IMG/VR virus record: IMGVR_UViG_3300044846_000324
Span: 1 to 30,026 of that record
Length of the DNA stretch: 30,026 bases
Direction: 5' to 3' (one strand)
Source: a virus
Shown: in pieces, positions 4,337-30,026 of the stretch
Numbering within the stretch: the first letter of the stretch is position 1
Layout of the letters: every line of letters starts with the position of its first letter
Made by a program: the position numbers and the translations under genes
Notes under the pieces: model-generated
Database searches by the model: none
What the model was told of the DNA's origin: nothing
What the model saw: only the letters and a program-made list of their open reading frames with translations

Positions 4337-4813
4337 ATGACAGTCCGCACATCCGCAGGGACAACACTTCGTGTTACTGCGTCAGCACCCGCTACCTTCA
4401 ACAGCGCAGGGTACACAACCCTGTTCACAACATCTCCCGTCCCCGCACTCGTTGGTGAAATCACCGACTTGGGCGAGTTTGGTCGTGAGTATGCTTTGGT
4501 CACGCATATGCCAGTTGGCTCGCGTGGCACACAGAAGTTCAAAGGCTCATTCAACGAAGGCACAATCACTTTGTCTTTGGGTTTGGACACCGATGACGCA
4601 GGTCAGATTATTATGAAAGCCGCAAGCATTTCTGATAACGACTATTCGTTTATGGTGACTACACAGAATGGCGACAAATACTTTTTCAGAGCACAGATCA
4701 TGTCTTGGAAAGTAGGCGTTGGCTCTGTTGATTCAATCACTACTGCAACTGCAACATTGGAAATCACAACCAATGCCGCAGGAGTTGGTATTGTTGAATC
4801 ACTTGCCGCTTAA
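4337..4813 (+). CDS. Major tail (tube) protein
   Basis: A 158-residue beta-rich protein with a good GAGAGGAAA ribosome binding site. TFNSAGYTTLFTTSPVPALVGEITDLGEFGREYALVTH, then KFKGSFNEGTITLSLGLD, DYSFMVTTQNGDKYFFRAQIMSWKVGVGSVDSITTATATLEIT fits the phage tail-tube family in siphoviruses. Position directly upstream of the frameshifted chaperone pair and the tape measure confirms it. It polymerises as rings along the tail. The isolated transcription unit after the terminator suits a protein needed in many copies. Confidence 0.9.
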   Translation: MTVRTSAGTTLRVTASAPATFNSAGYTTLFTTSPVPALVGEITDLGEFGREYALVTHMPVGSRGTQKFKGSFNEGTITLSLGLDTDDAGQIIMKAASISDNDYSFMVTTQNGDKYFFRAQIMSWKVGVGSVDSITTATATLEITTNAAGVGIVESLAA

Positions 4814-4860
4814 AGAATTGCCGTAAATGGCAACACGCGCACCTACTCGGGTCAGTTCGC

Positions 4861-4918
4861 ATCCTTCGCGGGGTGCGGCTGATTCGAGCAAGGGCAATAA
4901 CTCTCCCCGCGAAAGGAT
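4861..4918 (+). promoter_or_regulatory. Long hairpin burying the chaperone ribosome binding site
   Basis: ATCCTTCGCGGGG (4861-4873) pairs with CCCCGCGAAAGGAT (4905-4918) as 13 base pairs with one bulged A at 4914; the loop is 31 bases. The right arm contains AAAGGA (4913-4917 core), the only good ribosome binding site for the ATG at 4926. In RNA the site would be closed unless opened by a ribosome or factor. It may also slow transcription or block exonucleases at the 3' end of the tail-tube mRNA; there is no T run, so it is not a standard terminator. Confidence 0.7.
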
Positions 4919-4925
4919 TACTAAA

Positions 4926-5330
4926 ATGTTTGATATCTCAGAACTAGCAGTTAAAGACACAGCCATCGTTGAATTGGAAACAGTTGAAGGCGATGCGTTG
5001 CTCGATGTAAATGGAAATCAACTTTCCATCACAGTTTACGGACCAGGCTCTAAAGCATTTCAGAAGGCACAAAGCATCCGCAATCGTGCGATTCTTGAGT
5101 ATGTGAAGAAGGGTGGCAAGAAGATGAAAGAAGGCGAACAGCGCGAGCTTGATGCTGAGTTCTTATCTGCTTGCACAGTCAGCTTCAATGGCTTTGGCTA
5201 CAAAGACTTCACAGGCATCGAGATGTTTAAAGCGGCTTATCTTGATTCAGCAATCGGCTTCATTACTGAGCAAGTAAATAAAGCCGTTGGTGATTGGGCA
5301 AATTTTACTCAGGCATCATCGAAGACCTAA
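4926..5330 (+). CDS. Tail assembly chaperone, short form (gpG-like)
   Basis: Start chosen at the ATG in MFDISELAVKD, 8 bases after AAAGGA; an in-frame ATG at 4827 would add 33 low-complexity residues translated from the hairpin region and is not favoured. The 134-residue protein has a VELETVEGDALLDVNGNQLSITVYGPGS beta part, then a helical KAFQKAQSIRNRAILEYVKKGG region and EFLSACTVSFNGFGYKDFTG, the usual plan of short chaperones (DUF/Phage_TAC) that coat the tape measure before tube assembly. It is a position analogue of lambda gpG. The slip site near its end produces the longer form. Confidence 0.85.
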   Translation: MFDISELAVKDTAIVELETVEGDALLDVNGNQLSITVYGPGSKAFQKAQSIRNRAILEYVKKGGKKMKEGEQRELDAEFLSACTVSFNGFGYKDFTGIEMFKAAYLDSAIGFITEQVNKAVGDWANFTQASSKT

Positions 5331-19097: not shown

Positions 19098-20066
19098 TCA
19101 AGCTATCAATATGCTCTCAGCTTCTGACTTCATGCGATTGCCATTACCGAACCAAGCATTGTTCATTCGGCTATCGACATTGTGTCCCTTGTTGTGATCG
19201 ATGTATTCAGTCACAGCATTAAGCAATCCCCATCGAGTCCCATTCGCGCCATCGATTGTTGAACCCATACCCTTGCCTTCAAATAGTTCAAGGACTTTGT
19301 TGTATCCGCGAGAAGGTTTGAATGTTGCTGACTTCACATCGAAGTTTGCAGGGAATAAATTGTTCAGGAATTCTTTGACATAAGAAACGCTGACTTGCTG
19401 TCTCGCTAAGTAACGATACTTATCCATCATTCCATCGAATCCACTTACTACCAATCCGAGCTTATCGCGCATCAGACTTGCATCGAACTCTCTGCCATGC
19501 GTGATGTTGAATCGGCTCGGTGCAGTCTCATTGTCAGCCGCAGATAGCGTGTTATTGCAGACAACTCTGACGCTAGTGAACTGACCAATGGTCGCTGTCG
19601 AGCCATCAAAGCTAGTCGATAAAAGTAAGTATCCTTTCACCGCATCATCACCAAGAACGCAAGCCTCCTTATTTGTGTTCGCTAACGCCCAGATTCTTTT
19701 CCCTCCTTTGATAGAACCCGCGACTTCCATTTTGAATCCTGCGCTTTGCATCAGAACATTAAAGAAGTCCAGTACATCCTTGGGCTGATGCAACTTGTAT
19801 CGATCAGTCACCAATCCCAATGGTGCAAGAGTGTCATCACGATAAACAACATTCTGTCTTTGTACTTCTTTGATATCGCCAAAGTTATCTGGCTTATAAA
19901 GAACCTTCGCGACCTTCGCTTGCCAATCAAGTCCTGACATCTTTGCCCATGTCTCGATATCCGCATCTGGGTTTAGTTGCTGACCAAGACCATGCCAAGG
20001 TTTCTGTCCGACATAAGCGATCTCAGCCATGCCTGTCATTTCGTTTGTTTCGATTAAGTGAGCCAT
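19098..20066 (-). CDS. DUF932 phage/plasmid-like protein
   Basis: A 322-residue protein with AAAGGGAAA before its ATG. MAHLIETNEMTGMAEIAYVG, KPWHGLGQQL, LGLVTDRYKLHQPKDVLDFF, KGGKRIWALAN and the FDGSTATIGQFTSVRVVCNNTL core are the pattern of the DUF932 / TIGR03299 family, widespread in phages and plasmids (related to plasmid LGT/StbA-type unknowns). The biochemical role is not known. The gene lies between the amidoligase/cyclotransferase group and promoter 1, so the first leftward transcript probably covers amidoligase to DUF932. Confidence 0.88.
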   Translation of the reverse strand: MAHLIETNEMTGMAEIAYVGQKPWHGLGQQLNPDADIETWAKMSGLDWQAKVAKVLYKPDNFGDIKEVQRQNVVYRDDTLAPLGLVTDRYKLHQPKDVLDFFNVLMQSAGFKMEVAGSIKGGKRIWALANTNKEACVLGDDAVKGYLLLSTSFDGSTATIGQFTSVRVVCNNTLSAADNETAPSRFNITHGREFDASLMRDKLGLVVSGFDGMMDKYRYLARQQVSVSYVKEFLNNLFPANFDVKSATFKPSRGYNKVLELFEGKGMGSTIDGANGTRWGLLNAVTEYIDHNKGHNVDSRMNNAWFGNGNRMKSEAESILIA

Positions 20067-20076
20067 GATTTCCCTT

Positions 20077-20526
20077 TCAGTTGTAAGAATTAAATTGATC
20101 GCAGATTTCCTGCGTCAGCATGAGCGCGTCTTCGAGTGCATCCAGTTGCAAGCCACAGTCTTTGTATCCATCTGCAATCGACTTGTAATATCCGTGGGTC
20201 GGTGAGCCATAGTCAATTGAGTTCATGTAGTAAGCAATGGCAGGAACTGGCGAACCTTTCTGTTTGTGAACCATGAATGTGTCACGCTCATAAACGCTTG
20301 GCCATCCTTCGTACCTATCGAGGGCGGCTAAACAGGCGTCTGTGATTCGCCAGAGTCCAACCAATACCTCTGAGCCACGATCAGATTCAATGTCTGCAAC
20401 GCCCCTAAAAACGAGCCTGTGGTTCTTGAGCTTTCCTGTGCCAACAAAGACAGCTTTCGGACAACGCACCGCCATCTGTGCATGGTTGAGGTTGCTTCCG
20501 TATGCGGCATAAATATAAGTCTTCAT
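20077..20526 (-). CDS. Gamma-glutamylcyclotransferase-like (AIG2/GGCT family)
   Basis: A 149-residue protein with AYGSNLN near residue 8-14, the phosphate/substrate loop of the family; ADIESDRGSEVLVGLWRIT as the next strands; and ALDRYEGWPSVYERDTF, in which E73 is the position of the catalytic glutamate. GGCT enzymes release 5-oxoproline from gamma-glutamyl amine linkages. It is 2 bases from the preceding small gene and in one unit with an amidoligase, which would make such amide bonds. This pairing suggests making and trimming of gamma-glutamyl or similar modifications. Confidence 0.85.
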   Translation of the reverse strand: MKTYIYAAYGSNLNHAQMAVRCPKAVFVGTGKLKNHRLVFRGVADIESDRGSEVLVGLWRITDACLAALDRYEGWPSVYERDTFMVHKQKGSPVPAIAYYMNSIDYGSPTHGYYKSIADGYKDCGLQLDALEDALMLTQEICDQFNSYN

Positions 20527-20528
20527 GT

Positions 20529-20774
20529 TTAATCCAATGTAATAGCGATAACAAATTCGTGGTCGATAAGGTCTTCTAGGAATGCATCGTAGTTATCGGT
20601 TCTGATAAACGATGCATTGTCTAGGTGGCATCGATGTGCAACAGCATCCATAAACTCGGCAAGGTTCTTCTCCTTGTTCATCGATGTGTGTCGCATCTTC
20701 TCTGCAAATTCCTTGGCATCGGAGGCGAGGACAAAGCCCCCTCCTGAAAATAAGTAAGCTGTCTTGCTGATCAT
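20529..20774 (-). CDS. 81-residue protein between amidoligase and cyclotransferase
   Basis: Starts in an ATGA overlap with the amidoligase gene. MISKTAYLFSGGGFVLASDA, then EFAEKMRHTSMNKEKNLAEFMDAVAHRCHLDNASFI and DAFLEDLIDHEFVIAITLD: a small alpha/beta protein with an acidic end. I do not recognise a family. Because it lies between two enzymes of opposite chemistry, it may be a substrate, a partner or an inhibitor of them; this is only position-based. Confidence 0.65.
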   Translation of the reverse strand: MISKTAYLFSGGGFVLASDAKEFAEKMRHTSMNKEKNLAEFMDAVAHRCHLDNASFIRTDNYDAFLEDLIDHEFVIAITLD

Positions 20775-21577
20775 GCTGTCACCTCTTTAGAAAATTTAAC
20801 TGCGCGCTTCTTGTAGAACTTCGCTGTGTAGTTACCGATGTGGCCTCTGCGAACCATTCCTGCCAACATTGTGTCGAGGGCTTCTTTGGCTGTCGTCACT
20901 TGCGTGAAGTTCTTGATTGCGACATGGTCTTGCGCGTCTTTGACCATTGCGAATGTCAAGCGGATGTACTGTTCAACCTTGTCGGCTTCAACTGTTCCCG
21001 CATGATTGCGGAACTCAACTGAACCCATGCGGAAGAAAGACTGCAAGTTCAGCTTGTAGTAGCGATTGCTTCCGTAAGCTGTCGACAATTGCTGAACTGT
21101 TGTGCAACGATCGATCTTAGCGAATGTCTCTGCAACTGTATTCATCACGATGCTTTTGCAAAAGCGATTGTTGTTGGCGCGACGGCTCGTTGGCTGAACG
21201 CTGTCGAGTGCGAGTTCAAATTTAACAAAACGCTTGAACAAATTACGGAACTCTTGGATGCCCCAGTTCTTTGCATTGTGGTGAATGTGGAAACCGCAAG
21301 ACTGGTTGACCTTAGCACCGATCGCTACCAAGACTTCGCAAACCTTGCGAGCTTCTGCGATTCCTGCCTCGCCTTCCAAGATTGGGCTGACAACTTCGAA
21401 GCCGTTGACTCCGTTGATCGAACCATCAGTCTTGATTTGCCAGAGTGCATAGTTGCTACCAGAGTAGCCAGAGGTGATCGCGTTGACACCTGCATTGACC
21501 AATGCTTGAGCCACTTGGATTTGTGTAGCGTTGAAGCACTCGAGTTCGATTCCAAATTTGCCTGTTACCATTTTCAT
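20771..21577 (-). CDS. Amidoligase (Amidoligase_2, COOH-NH2 ligase)
   Basis: A 268-residue protein with the glutamine-synthetase-like fold motifs of the putative amidoligase family: GIELE (9-13), a QIKTDGSI strand with D51, FEVVSP (60-65), CGFHIHH (94-100) and EFRNHAGT (188-195). The paired Glu and His residues fit an ATP- and metal-binding ligase that joins an amine to a carboxylate. This is the first gene of the leftward operon, just after promoter 2. Comparative work by Iyer, Aravind and colleagues linked this family to AIG2-like cyclotransferases in phages and bacteria; here the two are separated by one small gene. The substrate is unknown. Confidence 0.85.
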   Translation of the reverse strand: MKMVTGKFGIELECFNATQIQVAQALVNAGVNAITSGYSGSNYALWQIKTDGSINGVNGFEVVSPILEGEAGIAEARKVCEVLVAIGAKVNQSCGFHIHHNAKNWGIQEFRNLFKRFVKFELALDSVQPTSRRANNNRFCKSIVMNTVAETFAKIDRCTTVQQLSTAYGSNRYYKLNLQSFFRMGSVEFRNHAGTVEADKVEQYIRLTFAMVKDAQDHVAIKNFTQVTTAKEALDTMLAGMVRRGHIGNYTAKFYKKRAVKFSKEVTA

Positions 21578-25186: not shown

Positions 25187-25645
25187 ATGCGTAAGATTAC
25201 TAAGCGCAAAATTTGGGCATTGGTCAATCCAATTGAACACGCCATTACTGGTGCGGCTTTAGTTGATAGAACATCATTAAATAAATTGCGTCTGTCAGAA
25301 TTAGCGGCATTGGATGCAATGATTCGCGGCAAGGGAACAGTAAGTGATTGGCGAACGCTTGTTGATGTGCTGAACCTTACTGAGATGATGGCTCGGCAGG
25401 GCATTGGTCCTGAAGCATTGGATTGTTGCGAGAAGGCGCAAGATGCCTTACACAAAGCGGCAATCAGATATCAGAACACAATGCGTATGGGATTAAACGG
25501 CATCGGCATTCAGGCAATTCGTGATTTGCTTGAGTACGCAGACCTTCAGCAACAAAGTATTCCTAGAAGCGAGTTTGAGAAGATGATTAAAAAGACTAAA
25601 GATCACATAAAGTCGCACAATGAAAGAGTTGTAGAGATTAAATGA
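25187..25645 (+). CDS. Conserved-looking phage protein, unknown
   Basis: A 152-residue protein starting MRKITKRKIWALVNPIEHAI. TSLNKLRLSELAALDAMIRGKGTVSDWRTLVDVLNLTEMMARQGIGPEALDCCEKAQDALHKAA is a helical domain of a kind found in phages of Proteobacteria ahead of nuclease genes. The C-terminal part is a charged helix. No catalytic motif seen. ATGA overlap with the YbcO-like gene. Confidence 0.7.
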   Translation: MRKITKRKIWALVNPIEHAITGAALVDRTSLNKLRLSELAALDAMIRGKGTVSDWRTLVDVLNLTEMMARQGIGPEALDCCEKAQDALHKAAIRYQNTMRMGLNGIGIQAIRDLLEYADLQQQSIPRSEFEKMIKKTKDHIKSHNERVVEIK

Positions 25646-25992
25646 AATTCCCAAAACACAAATATATAAGAAGCCTTACCTTATTGCGTAATGCGCGTGA
25701 AATCGCCTGTCAGCATTGCGGAACAGACGATGGCACAGTAGTAGCGGCACACACCAACTTCGGAGGCGGGAAGGGGCGTTCTATTAAGGCAGATGACAAT
25801 TTAATAGCGAGCCTTTGCCATCGATGCCACATGGAAATTGACCAAGGAAGTAAGCTGTCTAAAGAGGAGCGTCAATTCATTTGGCAGAAAGCCCATCGCA
25901 AAACAGTTCAGCGTTTGGTCATGCTTCACCTTTGGCCTCACGATGTGCCAGTTCCTGATTTGCAAAAGTTCTATGAACAAGAATCAAAATAG
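25642..25992 (+). CDS. YbcO-like nuclease (DUF1364)
   Basis: A 116-residue protein with CQHC (23-26), VVAAHTNFGGGKGRSIKADDNLIASLCHRCHMEIDQG (33-69) and a helical end. The two Cys/His pairs and the GKGxxIKADD strand are diagnostic for the DUF1364 family, whose member YbcO has a treble-clef HNH-like fold. In the E. coli DLP12 prophage ybcO and rusA are also close together. Probably acts on branched or single-stranded DNA. Confidence 0.85.
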   Translation: MKFPKHKYIRSLTLLRNAREIACQHCGTDDGTVVAAHTNFGGGKGRSIKADDNLIASLCHRCHMEIDQGSKLSKEERQFIWQKAHRKTVQRLVMLHLWPHDVPVPDLQKFYEQESK

Positions 25993-26024
25993 GCTAAGAT
26001 GCCTTATTAAATTTGTGAGGACTC

Positions 26025-26672
26025 ATGGATAAAAAACTGATTATCAAATATAAAAAAACTTCTGAGCTAATCCCTTATGCAATGAACAGCCGCACTCACA
26101 ATGAGCAACAAGTGGGGCAGATTGCGGCATCAATCAAAGCATTCGGTTTCACCAATCCAGTATTACTCGATGGAGACAACGGCATCATTGCGGGTCATGG
26201 TCGCGTGATGGCGGCACAGAAGCTCAACTTAGATCAAGTTCCTACAATTGAGTTGTCTCACTTTGATGAAAATCAGAAGCGAGCTTATGTCATCACAGAT
26301 AATAAGTTGGCTTTGAACGCAGGATGGGACAGCGAGTTCTTGGCCTCAGAGATTCAGACTTTAGAGTTTGAAGAATTTGATCTGAGCCTACTGGGTTTCA
26401 CAGTTGAGGACTTGGCTCGTCTTGCTGACGATCAGGACTTGGCGAAGATTCAAGCGATGGCTGATGTTGAAGATGAAGATGACTTAGATGATATTGATCA
26501 AAGCGATAAGGCAGATAAGCCGAAGCAAGAGTTATATCCTTTGTCAGTCATGCTAGATCATGATCAGCGAGAGGTTGTCTTTGCGGCTCTTAAGCAAGCA
26601 AAGAGAGATAAGCAACTGGAAAACAGCAGTCAAGCAATTTGGTTTATTTGTAAGGAGTACATAAATGAGTAA
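26025..26672 (+). CDS. ParB-like N-terminal-domain protein
   Basis: A 215-residue protein with GTGAGGA before the ATG. SELIPYAMNSRTHNEQQVGQIAASIKAFGFTNPVLLDGDNGIIAGHGRVMAAQKL is the ParB N-terminal (ParB/Srx) domain; GHGR at 57-60 is the nucleotide-binding box. VPTIELSHFDENQKRAYVITDNKLALNAGWD follows, as in ParB-like parts of phage methylase fusions, but no methylase is attached here. The C-terminal ~70 residues include an acidic patch (DVEDEDDLDDID). It overlaps the cupin gene by 8 bases and may be a NTPase or DNA nuclease/adaptor. Confidence 0.85.
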   Translation: MDKKLIIKYKKTSELIPYAMNSRTHNEQQVGQIAASIKAFGFTNPVLLDGDNGIIAGHGRVMAAQKLNLDQVPTIELSHFDENQKRAYVITDNKLALNAGWDSEFLASEIQTLEFEEFDLSLLGFTVEDLARLADDQDLAKIQAMADVEDEDDLDDIDQSDKADKPKQELYPLSVMLDHDQREVVFAALKQAKRDKQLENSSQAIWFICKEYINE

Positions 26673-27369
26673 AGCGTTTTCAACATTTGAATTTAAGAAC
26701 GGAAAGATAGCTGACTTGGACAGAAAATATCCGAGTTATTTATCTGCATTTGACTTTCACCTGACCATGCCTGATGGTGATACACACTATGTCTATTGCT
26801 ACGAGGACACAGCGACCGTTCTTTATAACGATCTGCATTTCACTCTAAAGACTGGAATGTTCGGATGCTTTCCTGGTCGTGTCCGAATCTTAGGAGGGAA
26901 AGGCATTGTCGTAAGCCGACAAGGTTACATGGGATTGATGAGTATCGGTGGACCCGCAGAGAATGAAGGTCGCCTGAAGTACATTGATGGTTGCACAGAT
27001 AGCTTATTGATTCCACCAATCATGCTTGGCGATCCTTGCTTGAATCTCTTGTACTTCCCGCCAGACATTGATCAGACAGCGCACACTCACCCGAGTGATC
27101 GAATTGGTATTGTCATGTCAGGAAAAGGAAAGTGCGTTGCATGGCAAGATGGCGTCGAAGAATCAATTGATCTGGTTGCAGGAATGATTTGGGTTATCCA
27201 TACAGATGGAGTCCATAAGTTCCAAACACCATATGGAGAATCAATGCGCGTCTTGGCTTATCACCCTGATAGTGATTATGGACCAACGCACCAATTCCAT
27301 CCGATGCTGAACCGCACAATCGTTGATGGCATCAGCGCGAATCAATTGCCAGAAATTCAGACAAAGTAA
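26665..27369 (+). CDS. Double cupin protein
   Basis: A 234-residue protein. A first beta-barrel spans about 50-115 (TLKTGMFGCFPGRVRILGGKGIVVSRQGYMGLMSIGG). A second, metal-binding barrel has HTHPSDRIGIVMSGKGKC (140-157) and a VAGMIWVIHTDGVHKFQT strand, giving His140, His142, His179 and His184 as likely metal ligands. The C-terminus has YGPTHQFHPMLNRTIVDG. Phage cupins near PAPS-reductase-like genes are of unknown function; the fold suits a small-molecule dioxygenase, isomerase or sensor. It lies between ParB-like and PAPS-reductase-like genes with tiny gaps. Confidence 0.8.
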   Translation: MSKAFSTFEFKNGKIADLDRKYPSYLSAFDFHLTMPDGDTHYVYCYEDTATVLYNDLHFTLKTGMFGCFPGRVRILGGKGIVVSRQGYMGLMSIGGPAENEGRLKYIDGCTDSLLIPPIMLGDPCLNLLYFPPDIDQTAHTHPSDRIGIVMSGKGKCVAWQDGVEESIDLVAGMIWVIHTDGVHKFQTPYGESMRVLAYHPDSDYGPTHQFHPMLNRTIVDGISANQLPEIQTK

Positions 27370-27370
27370 C

Positions 27371-28558
27371 ATGGCACGAATTCACAAGAAGGAAGTTGTT
27401 GAAGGTATCAATGTCTATGATGCGGCTATCGAGAGATTCCGCTATTTGTTTGATAACTTTGATAAGGTCGTCATTTCATTTAGTGGCGGCAAAGACTCGA
27501 CAGTCTGTCTGAACCTTGCCATGCAAGTGGCGAAGGAAAAAAACAAATTACCGCTTGATGTTTATTTTTGGGATGAGGAAGCAATCCACCCAGAGACAAT
27601 CGATTATGTTGAGCGTGTAAGGCAGAACCCCGACATTAAATTTAAGTGGCTATGCGTACCTATCAAGCACAGGAACGCTTGCTCAAGGTCTGAGCCTTAT
27701 TGGTATTGTTGGGATGAGACAAAGAAGGATAAGTGGGTTCGCCCAATGCCTGACAATCCTGATGTAGTCAAAGAAGTTAAGGGCTTCAAGATGGGCGACA
27801 CAGTTCCTGATGTTGCTCACTTTGTCTATGGTCCTGAACATGGGACTGTGGCTGATGTGCGTGGCATCAGGGCTGATGAGAGCTTGCGTCGTTACCGAAG
27901 CGTGGCGATGAAAACAAAGAACAACTGGATTGGCGCACCTCGAGTAGGACACAACTATCCAGTAAGCCCGATCTATGATTGGACAACCTTTGATGTTTGG
28001 ACAGCACCAAGATTATTCGGATGGGACTATAACCACTCTTATGATCTGATGGCGATGGTTGGTCAGTTGCCAAGCGACCAAAGGGTCTGTCCACCATACG
28101 GAGAGGAGCCTCTGTCGGGTCTTTGGATATATAAGCAATGTTGGCCTGAGATGTGGCACAAGATGATTGGAAGGGTGCATGGCGCGGCAACAGCAGGGCG
28201 ATATGCAATTACAGAACTCTACGGCTATGGGAAGCTCGAGTTACCGCAGGGAAAGACTTGGCGGCAATGGACTTATGATTTGCTTGAAATCTATCCAAAG
28301 CATCTGAGGGCGCAAGTCGCGGCAAACATCGCAGGGCTTATCGCTATTCACAAAAGCAAGACCAACAGACCGATACATGAAACAGAGACAGACATGGTCA
28401 CTGGTCTGAGTTGGAAATTCCTTTGCATGATTGCTAATCGCGGTGATCTGAAACAAAGGCGCGTCAATCAAGTGACCGCAAATGCAAACCTCGCCCGAGA
28501 CAAAGCGGGTATCACCTTAGAAGAATTGACGGAGCAAGATCATGATTCACGATACTGA
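27371..28558 (+). CDS. PAPS-reductase-like protein (IbrA-like)
   Basis: A 395-residue protein; start at MARIHKKEVVEGINVYDAAI. KVVISFSGGKDSTVCLNLA has the SGGKDS PP-loop (38-43) that binds and adenylates substrates. DVYFWDEEAIHPETIDYVERV and the later DVRGIRADESLRRYRS follow the pattern of phage and plasmid PAPS-reductase-like proteins. The C-terminal half, WIYKQCWPEMWHKMIGRVHGAATAGRYAITELYG, matches DUF3440-type proteins such as E. coli IbrA. True PAPS reductases have a C-terminal ECGLH motif, which I do not see, so reduction of PAPS itself is doubtful. Overlaps the following ParB-like gene by 17 bases. Confidence 0.85.
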   Translation: MARIHKKEVVEGINVYDAAIERFRYLFDNFDKVVISFSGGKDSTVCLNLAMQVAKEKNKLPLDVYFWDEEAIHPETIDYVERVRQNPDIKFKWLCVPIKHRNACSRSEPYWYCWDETKKDKWVRPMPDNPDVVKEVKGFKMGDTVPDVAHFVYGPEHGTVADVRGIRADESLRRYRSVAMKTKNNWIGAPRVGHNYPVSPIYDWTTFDVWTAPRLFGWDYNHSYDLMAMVGQLPSDQRVCPPYGEEPLSGLWIYKQCWPEMWHKMIGRVHGAATAGRYAITELYGYGKLELPQGKTWRQWTYDLLEIYPKHLRAQVAANIAGLIAIHKSKTNRPIHETETDMVTGLSWKFLCMIANRGDLKQRRVNQVTANANLARDKAGITLEELTEQDHDSRY

Positions 28559-29060
28559 TAAGCAACCAATAAGCAGAGTTAAGTGGGTTGATCGCCAGAC
28601 ACTTAAACCCAATGACTACAATCCAAACAAGGTCGCACCGCCTGAGATGGAATTGCTTATCACCTCAATCCTTGAGGATGGATGGACACAGCCAATCGTT
28701 ATCTTGCCAGACAGCACAATTGTTGATGGCTTCCATCGGTACACAGTAAGCGCAGATAAACGCCTGATGGCTCGATTTGGTGGCTTAGTGCCGACTGTAA
28801 CTGTGGACATCGATCCAGTTCACAGGCAGATGAGTACCATTCGCCACAATCGTGCGCGAGGAACTCATGGCATCTTACCAATGGCGGCAATCGTCAGACA
28901 CATTGTCAATGAAGGAGTCAGCAAGGAAGAAATCCAAGCGAGGCTCGGAATGGAAGATGAGGAAGTTGATCGCTTAGTTGATCGCGCAGGGATGCCGATA
29001 CAGGCAGGGCGCAAACAAGAAGGCTTCGGTAATTCTTGGAAACCTAAAGCGTTTGAATAA
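28542..29060 (+). CDS. ParB-like protein (IbrB-like)
   Basis: A 172-residue protein. VDRQTLKPNDYNPNKVAPPEMELLITSILEDGWTQPIVILPDSTIVDGFHRYTVS is a ParB N-terminal domain; the GxxR box is DGFHR (62-66). A second helical domain (AAIVRHIVNEGVSKEEIQARLGMEDEEVDRLVDRAGMP) looks like helix-turn-helix. Together with the preceding gene it reproduces the IbrA-IbrB pair described in E. coli, which raises expression of prophage-borne genes. Low sequence similarity to the other ParB-like protein 2.5 kb upstream makes a recent duplication unlikely. Confidence 0.82.
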   Translation: MIHDTDKQPISRVKWVDRQTLKPNDYNPNKVAPPEMELLITSILEDGWTQPIVILPDSTIVDGFHRYTVSADKRLMARFGGLVPTVTVDIDPVHRQMSTIRHNRARGTHGILPMAAIVRHIVNEGVSKEEIQARLGMEDEEVDRLVDRAGMPIQAGRKQEGFGNSWKPKAFE

Positions 29061-29141
29061 AAGAGGGGGGGGGATATCCCCGCATAATCCCTAAAAAAAT
29101 TCGGGGGTGCTTACTTAGAATATTTTTCCGAGGCTTGCGTT
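29061..29141 (+). other. G-run and nested inverted repeats before the late regulator
   Basis: Nine G residues (29065-29073) lead into the perfect palindrome GGGGATATCCCC (29070-29081). Its CCCCG (29078-29082) can instead pair with CGGGG (29102-29106), giving two mutually exclusive hairpins. The second is not followed by a T run. The stretch has no gene. It may be a terminator/regulatory switch for the upstream cassette. Confidence 0.4.
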
Positions 29142-29531
29142 ATGGAATATGTGGACTTCATTAAGCTAGATGATGATGAGAAGAACATCGATAAGCGGCT
29201 TCGTAATTGGGCGATCTGGGTAAGACCTAAGCGAGGCTTTGGCGCAGTACATCCGATGTTTCGTTGGTATCGACCAACTGAGCATTGGCAGGGAATCGGG
29301 GACAAATCAAGCTGTGATCTCCCAGATGCTGAAGCAGTCGAAAGGGTAATGCGTGATCTTCCTACGATAGAACGCTTGGCTATTAAGTGGTATTACATTG
29401 AGTTCAGCTCACCGACAAAAATTTGTAAAGTTCTGGGACTCAGCTTGATTGATCTGCGAGTCATAGTAAGGAAAGCTAGGAAGAACACAGAGCGATTACT
29501 TGGAAGCAGTAACAGTAAGCCAACTAAATAA
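29142..29531 (+). CDS. Putative late transcription regulator (Q / sigma-region-4-like HTH)
   Basis: A 129-residue protein with GAGG 9 bases before the ATG. The N-terminal part RLRNWAIWVRPKRGFGAVHPMFRWYRP is basic; the C-terminal half DLPTIERLAIKWYYIEFSSPTKICKVLGLSLIDLRVIVRKARKNTERLL is a helix-turn-helix like sigma-70 region 4 and like small phage late-gene regulators. The position, right before a promoter-like region and the packaging-end genes, matches that of Q-type antiterminators. Exact mechanism (antitermination or activation) is not visible. Confidence 0.65.
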   Translation: MEYVDFIKLDDDEKNIDKRLRNWAIWVRPKRGFGAVHPMFRWYRPTEHWQGIGDKSSCDLPDAEAVERVMRDLPTIERLAIKWYYIEFSSPTKICKVLGLSLIDLRVIVRKARKNTERLLGSSNSKPTK

Positions 29532-29552
29532 ATTGGAAAATAATTTATGATC

Positions 29553-29580
29553 TTGCAAAATAATGTTGCAATTTTTTTTT
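29553..29580 (+). terminator. A/T-rich hairpin plus T9
   Basis: The self-complementary hexamer TTGCAA occurs at 29553-29558 and 29566-29571 and can pair across a 7-base loop, followed by nine T residues (29572-29580). The stem is weak in G/C, so termination may be partial. It follows the late regulator gene by 21 bases. Confidence 0.5.
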
Positions 29581-29593
29581 GTTGTGGAATAAT
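29566..29593 (+). promoter_or_regulatory. Possible late promoter overlapping the terminator
   Basis: TTGCAA (29566-29571), a 16-base spacer and AATAAT (29588-29593) read as a sigma-70-like promoter whose -35 is also the right arm of the terminator hairpin. The following 113 bases to the HNH start hold an inverted repeat CAGAGG...CCTCTG and no gene. This resembles the late promoter/leader region that Q-type regulators act on. Confidence 0.45.
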
Positions 29594-29706
29594 GCAACTG
29601 TCAAGAGCGAATACGCAGAAGTTGACCACTATCTTTGCAGAGGTTTTACCGCCTCTGAATAGTTATTTACATCATTCTGCAAGAGCTTCGTAAACCACTC
29701 AATCAA

Positions 29707-30026
29707 ATGTCAAACCCTGATAAGCGATTAAGTGGATGGAAGCTTCAAAAGATTCGTCACTTGAGAATGATGCAATCACCGCTATGCATTCATTGTGAAG
29801 CTAAAGGATTGGTCAAGCTAGGTGAGGAACTAGATCACATCATTCCAATATCTAAGGGTGGCGGCAATGAGGATTCAAATCTTCAAATGCTGTGTAAAGA
29901 ATGTCATGCAATCAAGACGATTGCTGATCTAGGTCAGAAACCAAAACCGAAAATCGGGTTGGACGGATGGCCAGAAATCGAAATGGCAGGGGGGGAAAGA
30001 AAGTCTAAAGCCTTTCATTACAAAAC
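29707..30026 (+). CDS. HNH endonuclease (3' end beyond window)
   Basis: Reads MSNPDKRLSGWKLQKIRHLR, then SPLCIHCEAKGLVKLGEELDHIIPISKGGGNEDSNLQMLCKECHAIKT. The CxxC pairs (CIHC, CKEC) hold zinc, and the DH...N...H set forms the HNH metal site. In HK97-like phages an HNH gene sits next to the terminase genes and helps packaging. The frame is still open at the window edge after 106 residues, with a final ...EIEMAGGERKSKAFHYKT. The G7 run that encodes AGGE may be part of the cohesive-end region. Confidence 0.88.
   Translation, partial: MSNPDKRLSGWKLQKIRHLRMMQSPLCIHCEAKGLVKLGEELDHIIPISKGGGNEDSNLQMLCKECHAIKTIADLGQKPKPKIGLDGWPEIEMAGGERKSKAFHYK
29983..30012 (+). other. Candidate cohesive-end (cos) or packaging region
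   Basis: A run of seven G (29989-29995) followed by GAAAGAAAGTCTAAAG-type sequence lies at the end of the HNH reading frame. In many phages a G-rich run followed by AAGTCT-like sequence is found right after the HNH gene and before the small terminase, and I recall this as a cos-linked element. No terminase is visible in the window to confirm it. Confidence 0.35.

Follow-up and report, generated by a model that had tools for sequence, protein, structure and literature searches.

What can a virus do with a double cupin and a PP-loop ATPase encoded between two ParB-like proteins? The question is raised by a virus record of IMG/VR (IMGVR_UViG_3300044846_000324), from which a stretch of 30,026 bases, here called the window, was analysed. 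At positions 26025-29060 of the window, a cassette of four genes joins an IbrA-IbrB pair to a bicupin and to a further ParB-fold protein. A first reading of the letters (the original prediction) had proposed either a DNA or nucleotide modification system or a regulator of late or host genes. We think that modification is the leading possibility, namely of phage DNA or of a nucleotide shortly before packaging. We hold this view tentatively, at a little less than an even chance, and the sequence does not decide between the two.

A conserved cassette upstream of the terminase

The cassette consists of the following genes:

26025..26672, + strand: ParB1, a ParB/sulfiredoxin-fold protein binding nucleoside triphosphates (NTP), with a GHGR box and an acidic C-terminal part (phrog_620, phrog_498 and structure-profile matches)
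26665..27369, + strand: bicupin, a predicted metalloenzyme (AlphaFold2 (AF2) model, fold comparison, invariant residues)
27371..28558, + strand: IbrA-type PP-loop ATPase with PAPS_reduct and DUF3440 domains and an SGGKDST motif (Pfam and PHROG matches, AF2 model)
28542..29060, + strand: ParB2, an IbrB-type ParB-fold protein with a DGFHR box and an RHNRARGTHG motif (phrog_2159, invariant residues, co-occurrence with IbrA)

The four open reading frames (ORFs) follow each other almost without gaps: ParB1 and bicupin overlap by 8 nt, a gap of 1 nt separates the bicupin from the PP-loop gene, and the latter overlaps ParB2 by 17 nt. This agrees in coordinates and strand with the row of genes described in the original prediction, whose identities for them (ParB-like, double cupin, PP-loop protein of DUF3440 type and second ParB-like protein) were borne out by domain searches and fold models. 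The TTG at 27323 in the ORF listing is an over-extension of the PP-loop gene, and its start was taken as 27371. Promoters and terminators showed no excess over shuffled sequences in the region 25500-29700.

Scanning IMG/VR with the window cupin gave 137 relatives, the best 80 of which provide the locus counts reported here; the cupins of the IMG/VR loci form 53 clusters at 85% identity. The gene order is overwhelmingly ParB1-cupin-PPloop-ParB2, and all four genes are present in 39 of the 40 loci with sufficiently long flanks on either side, which removes the objection that no other phage might keep them together. A variant order, ParB1-PPloop-ParB2-cupin, was found in L009, and the fragments L007 and L012 are consistent with it. 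The ratios of nonsynonymous to synonymous substitution rates (dN/dS) against the closest relative, L002, are 0.059 for ParB1, 0.083 for the bicupin, 0.035 for the PP-loop gene and 0.065 for ParB2, and the four genes are under strong purifying selection. Because of these values, and of a gene order kept in dozens of dissimilar contigs, the cassette is more than a chance arrangement.

The cassette is also linked to DNA packaging by position. A large-terminase (TerL) gene lies downstream in 52 of the 55 loci with at least 1.5 kb of following sequence, at a median distance of 425 bp. These terminases fall by single linkage into four clusters, one of them Pfam-confirmed (Terminase_3) and the others assigned by motif and position only. 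The order in L002 is ParB2, small ORF, HNH, small ORF and TerL, and the order ParB-IbrA-ParB-terminase is also found in annotated Mycobacterium and Arthrobacter phages.

The proteins of the cassette

The PP-loop protein is of the IbrA type. It matches PAPS_reduct (2.2e-15) and DUF3440 (1.8e-17), both above the Pfam cutoffs, as well as phrog_2302 (1.5e-87); it carries the SGGKDS motif, aligns with annotated IbrA and is directly followed by ParB2. Domains, alignment and gene pairing therefore agree with the earlier assignment of the last two genes to IbrA-IbrB. The nucleotide-binding fold on which that reading depended is present in the AF2 model (predicted local distance difference test score, pLDDT, of 89), whose nearest folds are the PAPS domain of FAD synthase, APS/PAPS reductase and CysD.

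The window cupin scores under the curated Pfam cutoff for Cupin_2 (3.4e-5), and its AF2 model is a clear bicupin with a pLDDT of 93.5. The nearest solved folds are those of DUF861/YlbA/ureidoglycine aminohydrolase, with Z scores of 17-19 and a root-mean-square deviation of about 3 over some 195 residues at ~12% identity. Although the fold is similar, there is no NCBIfam or Pfam family match to ureidoglycine aminohydrolase. The profile found no convincing match among sequences of the Protein Data Bank (PDB; best E 0.46), and BFVD gave generic cupin matches only. The double cupin of the original prediction stands, but its four canonical histidine ligands are reduced to three by motif spacing (H140, H142 and H184). 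These predicted ligands are confined to the C-terminal barrel and form a three-His variant of the HxHx3-4E...H set, with canonical spacing in all sequences and the invariant R146 in the usual Glu position. Across 50 phage homologues 46 columns are invariant, and C110, C125, C157, H200 and H212 are further invariant residues of the protein. In about 75 cellular homologues from many bacterial phyla, little or no variation is seen at H140, H142, H184, R146, C110, C125, H200 and H212.

Both ParB proteins match the Pfam family ParB_N weakly and PHROG families strongly. ParB1 is matched by phrog_620 (2.5e-53) and by phrog_498 (ParB-methyltransferase, 2.1e-49), its nearest relatives are ParB domains that form fusions with DNA methyltransferases of phages (phrog_498, PADLOC MTase_II), and its profile matches Noc, ParB, sulfiredoxin and SbnI structures; G57, R60 and N93 are invariant in 39 relatives. 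ParB2 is matched by phrog_2159 (3.3e-64), with D62, G63, H65 and R66, and R101, N103, R104, G107 and H109 as invariant residues. The Box II arginine and Box III asparagine of the ParB/Srx NTP-binding fold are found in both (R60/N93 in ParB1, R66/N103 in ParB2), in line with profile matches to ParB/Noc of the PDB. A helix-turn-helix in ParB2 is plausible: over residues 15-144 its profile can be aligned with ParB proteins of solved structure. A role in modification would have two precedents: the ParB-methyltransferase fusions of phages (PMC12704722; phrog_498), and DpdB, a ParB-like ATPase that puts a modified base, 7-deazaguanine, into DNA (PMC12839542). A ParABS plasmid partition system was considered and set aside; no ParA was seen in the part of the window ORFs that was scanned.

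Cupins as recurrent partners of IbrA and IbrB

The window bicupin gave no tblastn match in 50,697 INPHARED phage records, and for this reason annotated phages were reached through IbrA. An independent IbrA-anchored sample, with a cupin-less Streptococcus IbrA as the reference for the similarity ranking, comprised 80 loci, or 56 after dereplication. IbrB is present in 54 of these 56, and 27 carry a cupin that resembles ectoine synthase (EctC). Such EctC-like cupins are found in five of the annotated phage records only, in four of them beside IbrA. In Pseudoalteromonas phage XCL1123 the ectoine-synthase-family cupin (Ectoine_synth, 1.7e-35) stands between IbrA and IbrB; it aligns with solved L-ectoine synthase and keeps E57, Y84 and H92, which we take to be the EctC iron ligands. 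Mycobacterium phage Gaia encodes cupin and IbrB as one fused protein, with the EctC-like part at residues 1-126 and the IbrB part at 136-200, and the name "ectoine synthase/ParB multidomain protein" is already in use as a GenBank label. The window bicupin does not match PF06339 (EctC), whereas these other IbrA-linked cupins do. Given the bicupin cassettes, the EctC-like cupins in IbrA loci and the Gaia fusion, cupins are recurrent partners of IbrA-IbrB drawn from two families, and the original prediction was mistaken in calling the insertion of a cupin unusual.

In bacterial genomes the bicupin homologue usually lies outside a phage cassette. The few loci that do carry the cassette (L113, L123, L133, L160 and L164) are probably prophages. 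A PP-loop gene is near the homologue in 41 of 76 bacterial loci, mostly encoding AsnB-like synthetases or stand-alone PP-loop proteins, and none of 27 AsnB-like proteins has the Cys2 nucleophile. Since the bicupin occurs both in phage cassettes and beside bacterial PP-loop genes, it tends to accompany PP-loop synthetases in two unrelated contexts. Some bacterial loci (L150, L134, L136 and others) place the cupin homologue beside Cys2-less AsnB-like proteins and beside members of a zinc-ribbon family; such loci may belong to a small-molecule pathway of Planctomycetes, Verrucomicrobia and Bacteroidota that has yet to be described. In a Ramlibacter genome (L103, L105), cupin homologues are next to very large multi-domain genes that resemble, by eye, non-ribosomal peptide synthetases.

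Accessory and neighbouring genes

A second PP-loop gene lies between cupin and IbrA in 17 of the 80 IMG/VR loci. Six of the 80 have a class-II glutamine amidotransferase (GATase II), and all six also carry the second PP-loop gene, a combination that resembles a split asparagine synthetase. Three examples of the amidotransferase, with the MCGI start kept and the second PP-loop gene present, are:

L053 6429-6965: class-II glutamine amidotransferase
L065 6411-6959: class-II glutamine amidotransferase
L037 6281-6964: class-II glutamine amidotransferase

The genes flanking the cassette in the window are:

25642..25992, + strand: HNH endonuclease, directly upstream (phrog_131, 1.8e-24)
29142..29531, + strand: small protein weakly resembling sigma-70 region 4 or antitermination Q, directly downstream (phrog_79, 7.9e-4; Sigma70_r4_2, 0.014)
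29707..30026, + strand: second HNH-type ORF from sequence reading, open at the window end; terminase genes come next in the closest relative

Several other observations concern the surroundings of these genes. On the - strand of the window, positions 19098-21577 encode consecutively a DUF932 protein, a gamma-glutamylcyclotransferase (GGACT), an 81-aa ORF and an Amidoligase_2 protein. Genes of these kinds are also close to the cassette in L084, L086, L011 and L089, and they may be another amide-chemistry module of these phages. L089 also has a SET-domain gene between ParB1 and the PP-loop gene (4642-5001). In many phages with the cupin-less pair, an SNF2-type helicase is directly upstream of IbrA (L194 2809-4008 and relatives). 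Small stand-alone proteins like the C-terminal part of IbrA are encoded downstream of IbrB in some loci (L186 6135-6398, L214 6086-6340, L217 6617-6886).

Proposed function

If the cassette modifies DNA or a nucleotide, the IbrA-type PP-loop enzyme would use ATP to activate, by adenylation, an oxo or acid group, carried by a DNA base, by a nucleotide or by a small precursor. The small group to be joined would come from the cupin metalloenzyme, which would make it or tailor it (by hydrolysis, cyclisation or rearrangement), and the two ParB-fold proteins, by binding NTP and DNA, would direct these reactions to phage DNA shortly before it is packaged. The second PP-loop enzyme and the amidotransferase of some phages would supply nitrogen. 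These accessory genes, together with the AsnB-like neighbours of bacterial cupins, suggest ATP-driven amide or amidine chemistry. The group would then be nitrogen-linked, and its purpose might be protection from host defences or a mark for packaging. A more specific version, which we regard as speculative and improbable, is a new phage hypermodification in which, immediately before packaging, a PP-loop ligase would join a cupin-made group, possibly a cyclic amide or amidine, to a DNA base, together with NTP-driven clamps of ParB type on the DNA. If this were true, interchangeable cupins and optional amidotransferase and PP-loop partners would diversify the DNA mark among phages. The corresponding gene runs of Bacillus phage 031MP003 and of Arthrobacter phage Salgado include genes annotated as methyltransferases, but these are weak evidence because none has a Pfam match.

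Several results count against modification. Known hypermodifying phages have genes for nucleotide biosynthesis or for glycosyltransferases, none of which was seen beside the cassette. IbrA-IbrB are also found by themselves, both in phages and in E. coli (ybdNM), where no roles other than regulatory ones are on record. Mirror-tree correlations are 0.80-0.84 for IbrA-IbrB, 0.53-0.60 for cupin-IbrA and 0.69 for cupin-TerL; since the cupin distances follow the terminase at least as well as IbrA (r 0.69 vs 0.53), co-evolution of cupin and IbrA beyond linkage is not demonstrated. Finally, in four loci (L084, L085, L086 and L088) a TctC/Bug solute-binding gene stands where the cupin would be (Pfam, 1.7e-38), which suggests Burkholderiales-type hosts:

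L084 2756-3598: TctC/Bug periplasmic solute-binding gene between ParB1 and the PP-loop gene
L086 4175-5017: same gene, same position
L088 4174-5004: same gene, same position

Alternative explanations

The cassette could instead be a set of transcription regulators, in which ParB1 and IbrB would be DNA-binding NTP switches, IbrA a co-activator and the cupin a small-molecule sensor, acting on late phage or host genes. We think that this is unlikely, even if much in the record of the pair speaks for it: phage annotations and the literature call IbrA and IbrB co-activators of prophage gene expression, ybdNM of E. coli is under tight regulation, and YbdM has been predicted to be a transcription factor. 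Moreover, the Q-like or sigma-4-like gene lies directly downstream of the cassette, and AraC-type sensors are known among cupins (AraC_binding matches 19 of the 50 bicupin members). However, the 46 invariant cupin columns, with clusters of His, Cys, Arg and Asp kept over several phyla, are more enzyme-like than sensor-like, and the accessory genes encode PP-loop and amidotransferase enzymes.

Somewhat less likely still is that the system marks the packaging site, the ParB proteins clamping the pac or cos region while the enzymes introduce modifications into the DNA of that region, or into the terminase, for a correct start or stop. The terminase-proximal position in the IMG/VR loci and in Mycobacterium and Arthrobacter phages fits such a role, as does the action of ParB folds as cytidine triphosphate (CTP) clamps in chromosome segregation (PMC12704722). 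Nevertheless, in Streptococcus and Microcystis phages and in Gaia, IbrA-IbrB lie by helicases or recombinases, away from the terminase.

The features tested count against the two remaining explanations. DNA phosphorothioation of the Dnd/Ssp type, to which the original prediction had linked the cassette through DndB and DndC, is very improbable: a PP-loop/PAPS_reduct domain is common to both systems and DndB is a ParB-family protein, but the DndC match is limited to PP-loop residues 25-53 (PADLOC, 4.9e-6; NCBIfam, 20 bits for a cutoff of 290), no DndA-, DndD- or DndE-like partner was found among the window ORFs scanned, and no Cys is invariant in the PP-loop family. A CysH-type reductase of 3'-phosphoadenosine 5'-phosphosulfate (PAPS) in auxiliary sulfur metabolism is hardly credible, in spite of the PAPS_reduct domain, the usual annotation of the phage copies and the wide reporting of viral cysH as an auxiliary metabolic gene, since the family has no conserved C-terminal catalytic Cys (the best columns are C95 in 41/45, C257 in 36/45 and C240 in 35/45), NCBIfam CysH models score far below cutoff (16.3 vs 165.1 and 23.7 vs 154 bits), and sulfate assimilation involves neither ParB nor cupin partners.

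Novelty and comparison with known systems

Annotations of IbrA and IbrB, in phages as in E. coli, go back two decades and mostly call them virulence co-activators or viral PAPS reductase. The pair by name and the GenBank ectoine synthase/ParB label were already known; a cupin-containing cassette is not described in the literature searched, including surveys of ParB folds and of phosphorothioation, where subscription journals were thinly covered and absence is no proof. With two cupin families, optional PP-loop and amidotransferase partners, and a bicupin form directly upstream of the terminase, IbrA-IbrB are no longer an orphan pair but an enzyme system open to testing, and culturable phages with related loci are material for measuring its product. 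There is also a warning here for the calling of auxiliary metabolic genes: many of the viral genes reported as cysH may encode proteins of the IbrA type and no enzyme of sulfate assimilation.

Among the closest known systems is the classical IbrA-IbrB pair of E. coli and Streptococcus phages (YbdN-YbdM in E. coli K-12). It has the same succession of a DUF3440 PP-loop protein and a DGFHR ParB-fold protein, homologous over most of their length and co-occurring across phages, but it is found without bicupin and ParB1. The loci of XCL1123 and of Mycobacterium phages Gaia and Nebkiss share a cupin metalloenzyme adjoining or fused to IbrB, beside IbrA; theirs is, however, an ectoine-synthase-family monocupin, by profile not homologous to the window bicupin. 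Mycobacterium phage HarveySr and Salgado have the order ParB-IbrA-ParB-terminase and its position, without a cupin and, in Salgado, with the methyltransferase-annotated gene.

Known modification systems offer further comparisons. Dpd 7-deazaguanine modification also pairs a ParB-like NTPase (DpdB) with a base-modifying enzyme, the transglycosylase DpdA, whereas the cassette lacks DpdA and DpdC and has a PP-loop protein and a cupin instead. Phosphorothioation by Dnd, Ssp or BREX-4 shares the PAPS_reduct PP-loop domain (DndC, SspD, BrxP) and the ParB family of DndB, but the cassette is without desulfurase, DndD and DndE, and its likeness to DndC covers the P-loop only. Lastly, the ureidoglycine aminohydrolase bicupins (YlbA/AllE) are the closest solved folds to the window bicupin, which has no family match to them in sequence; their pathway is absent here.

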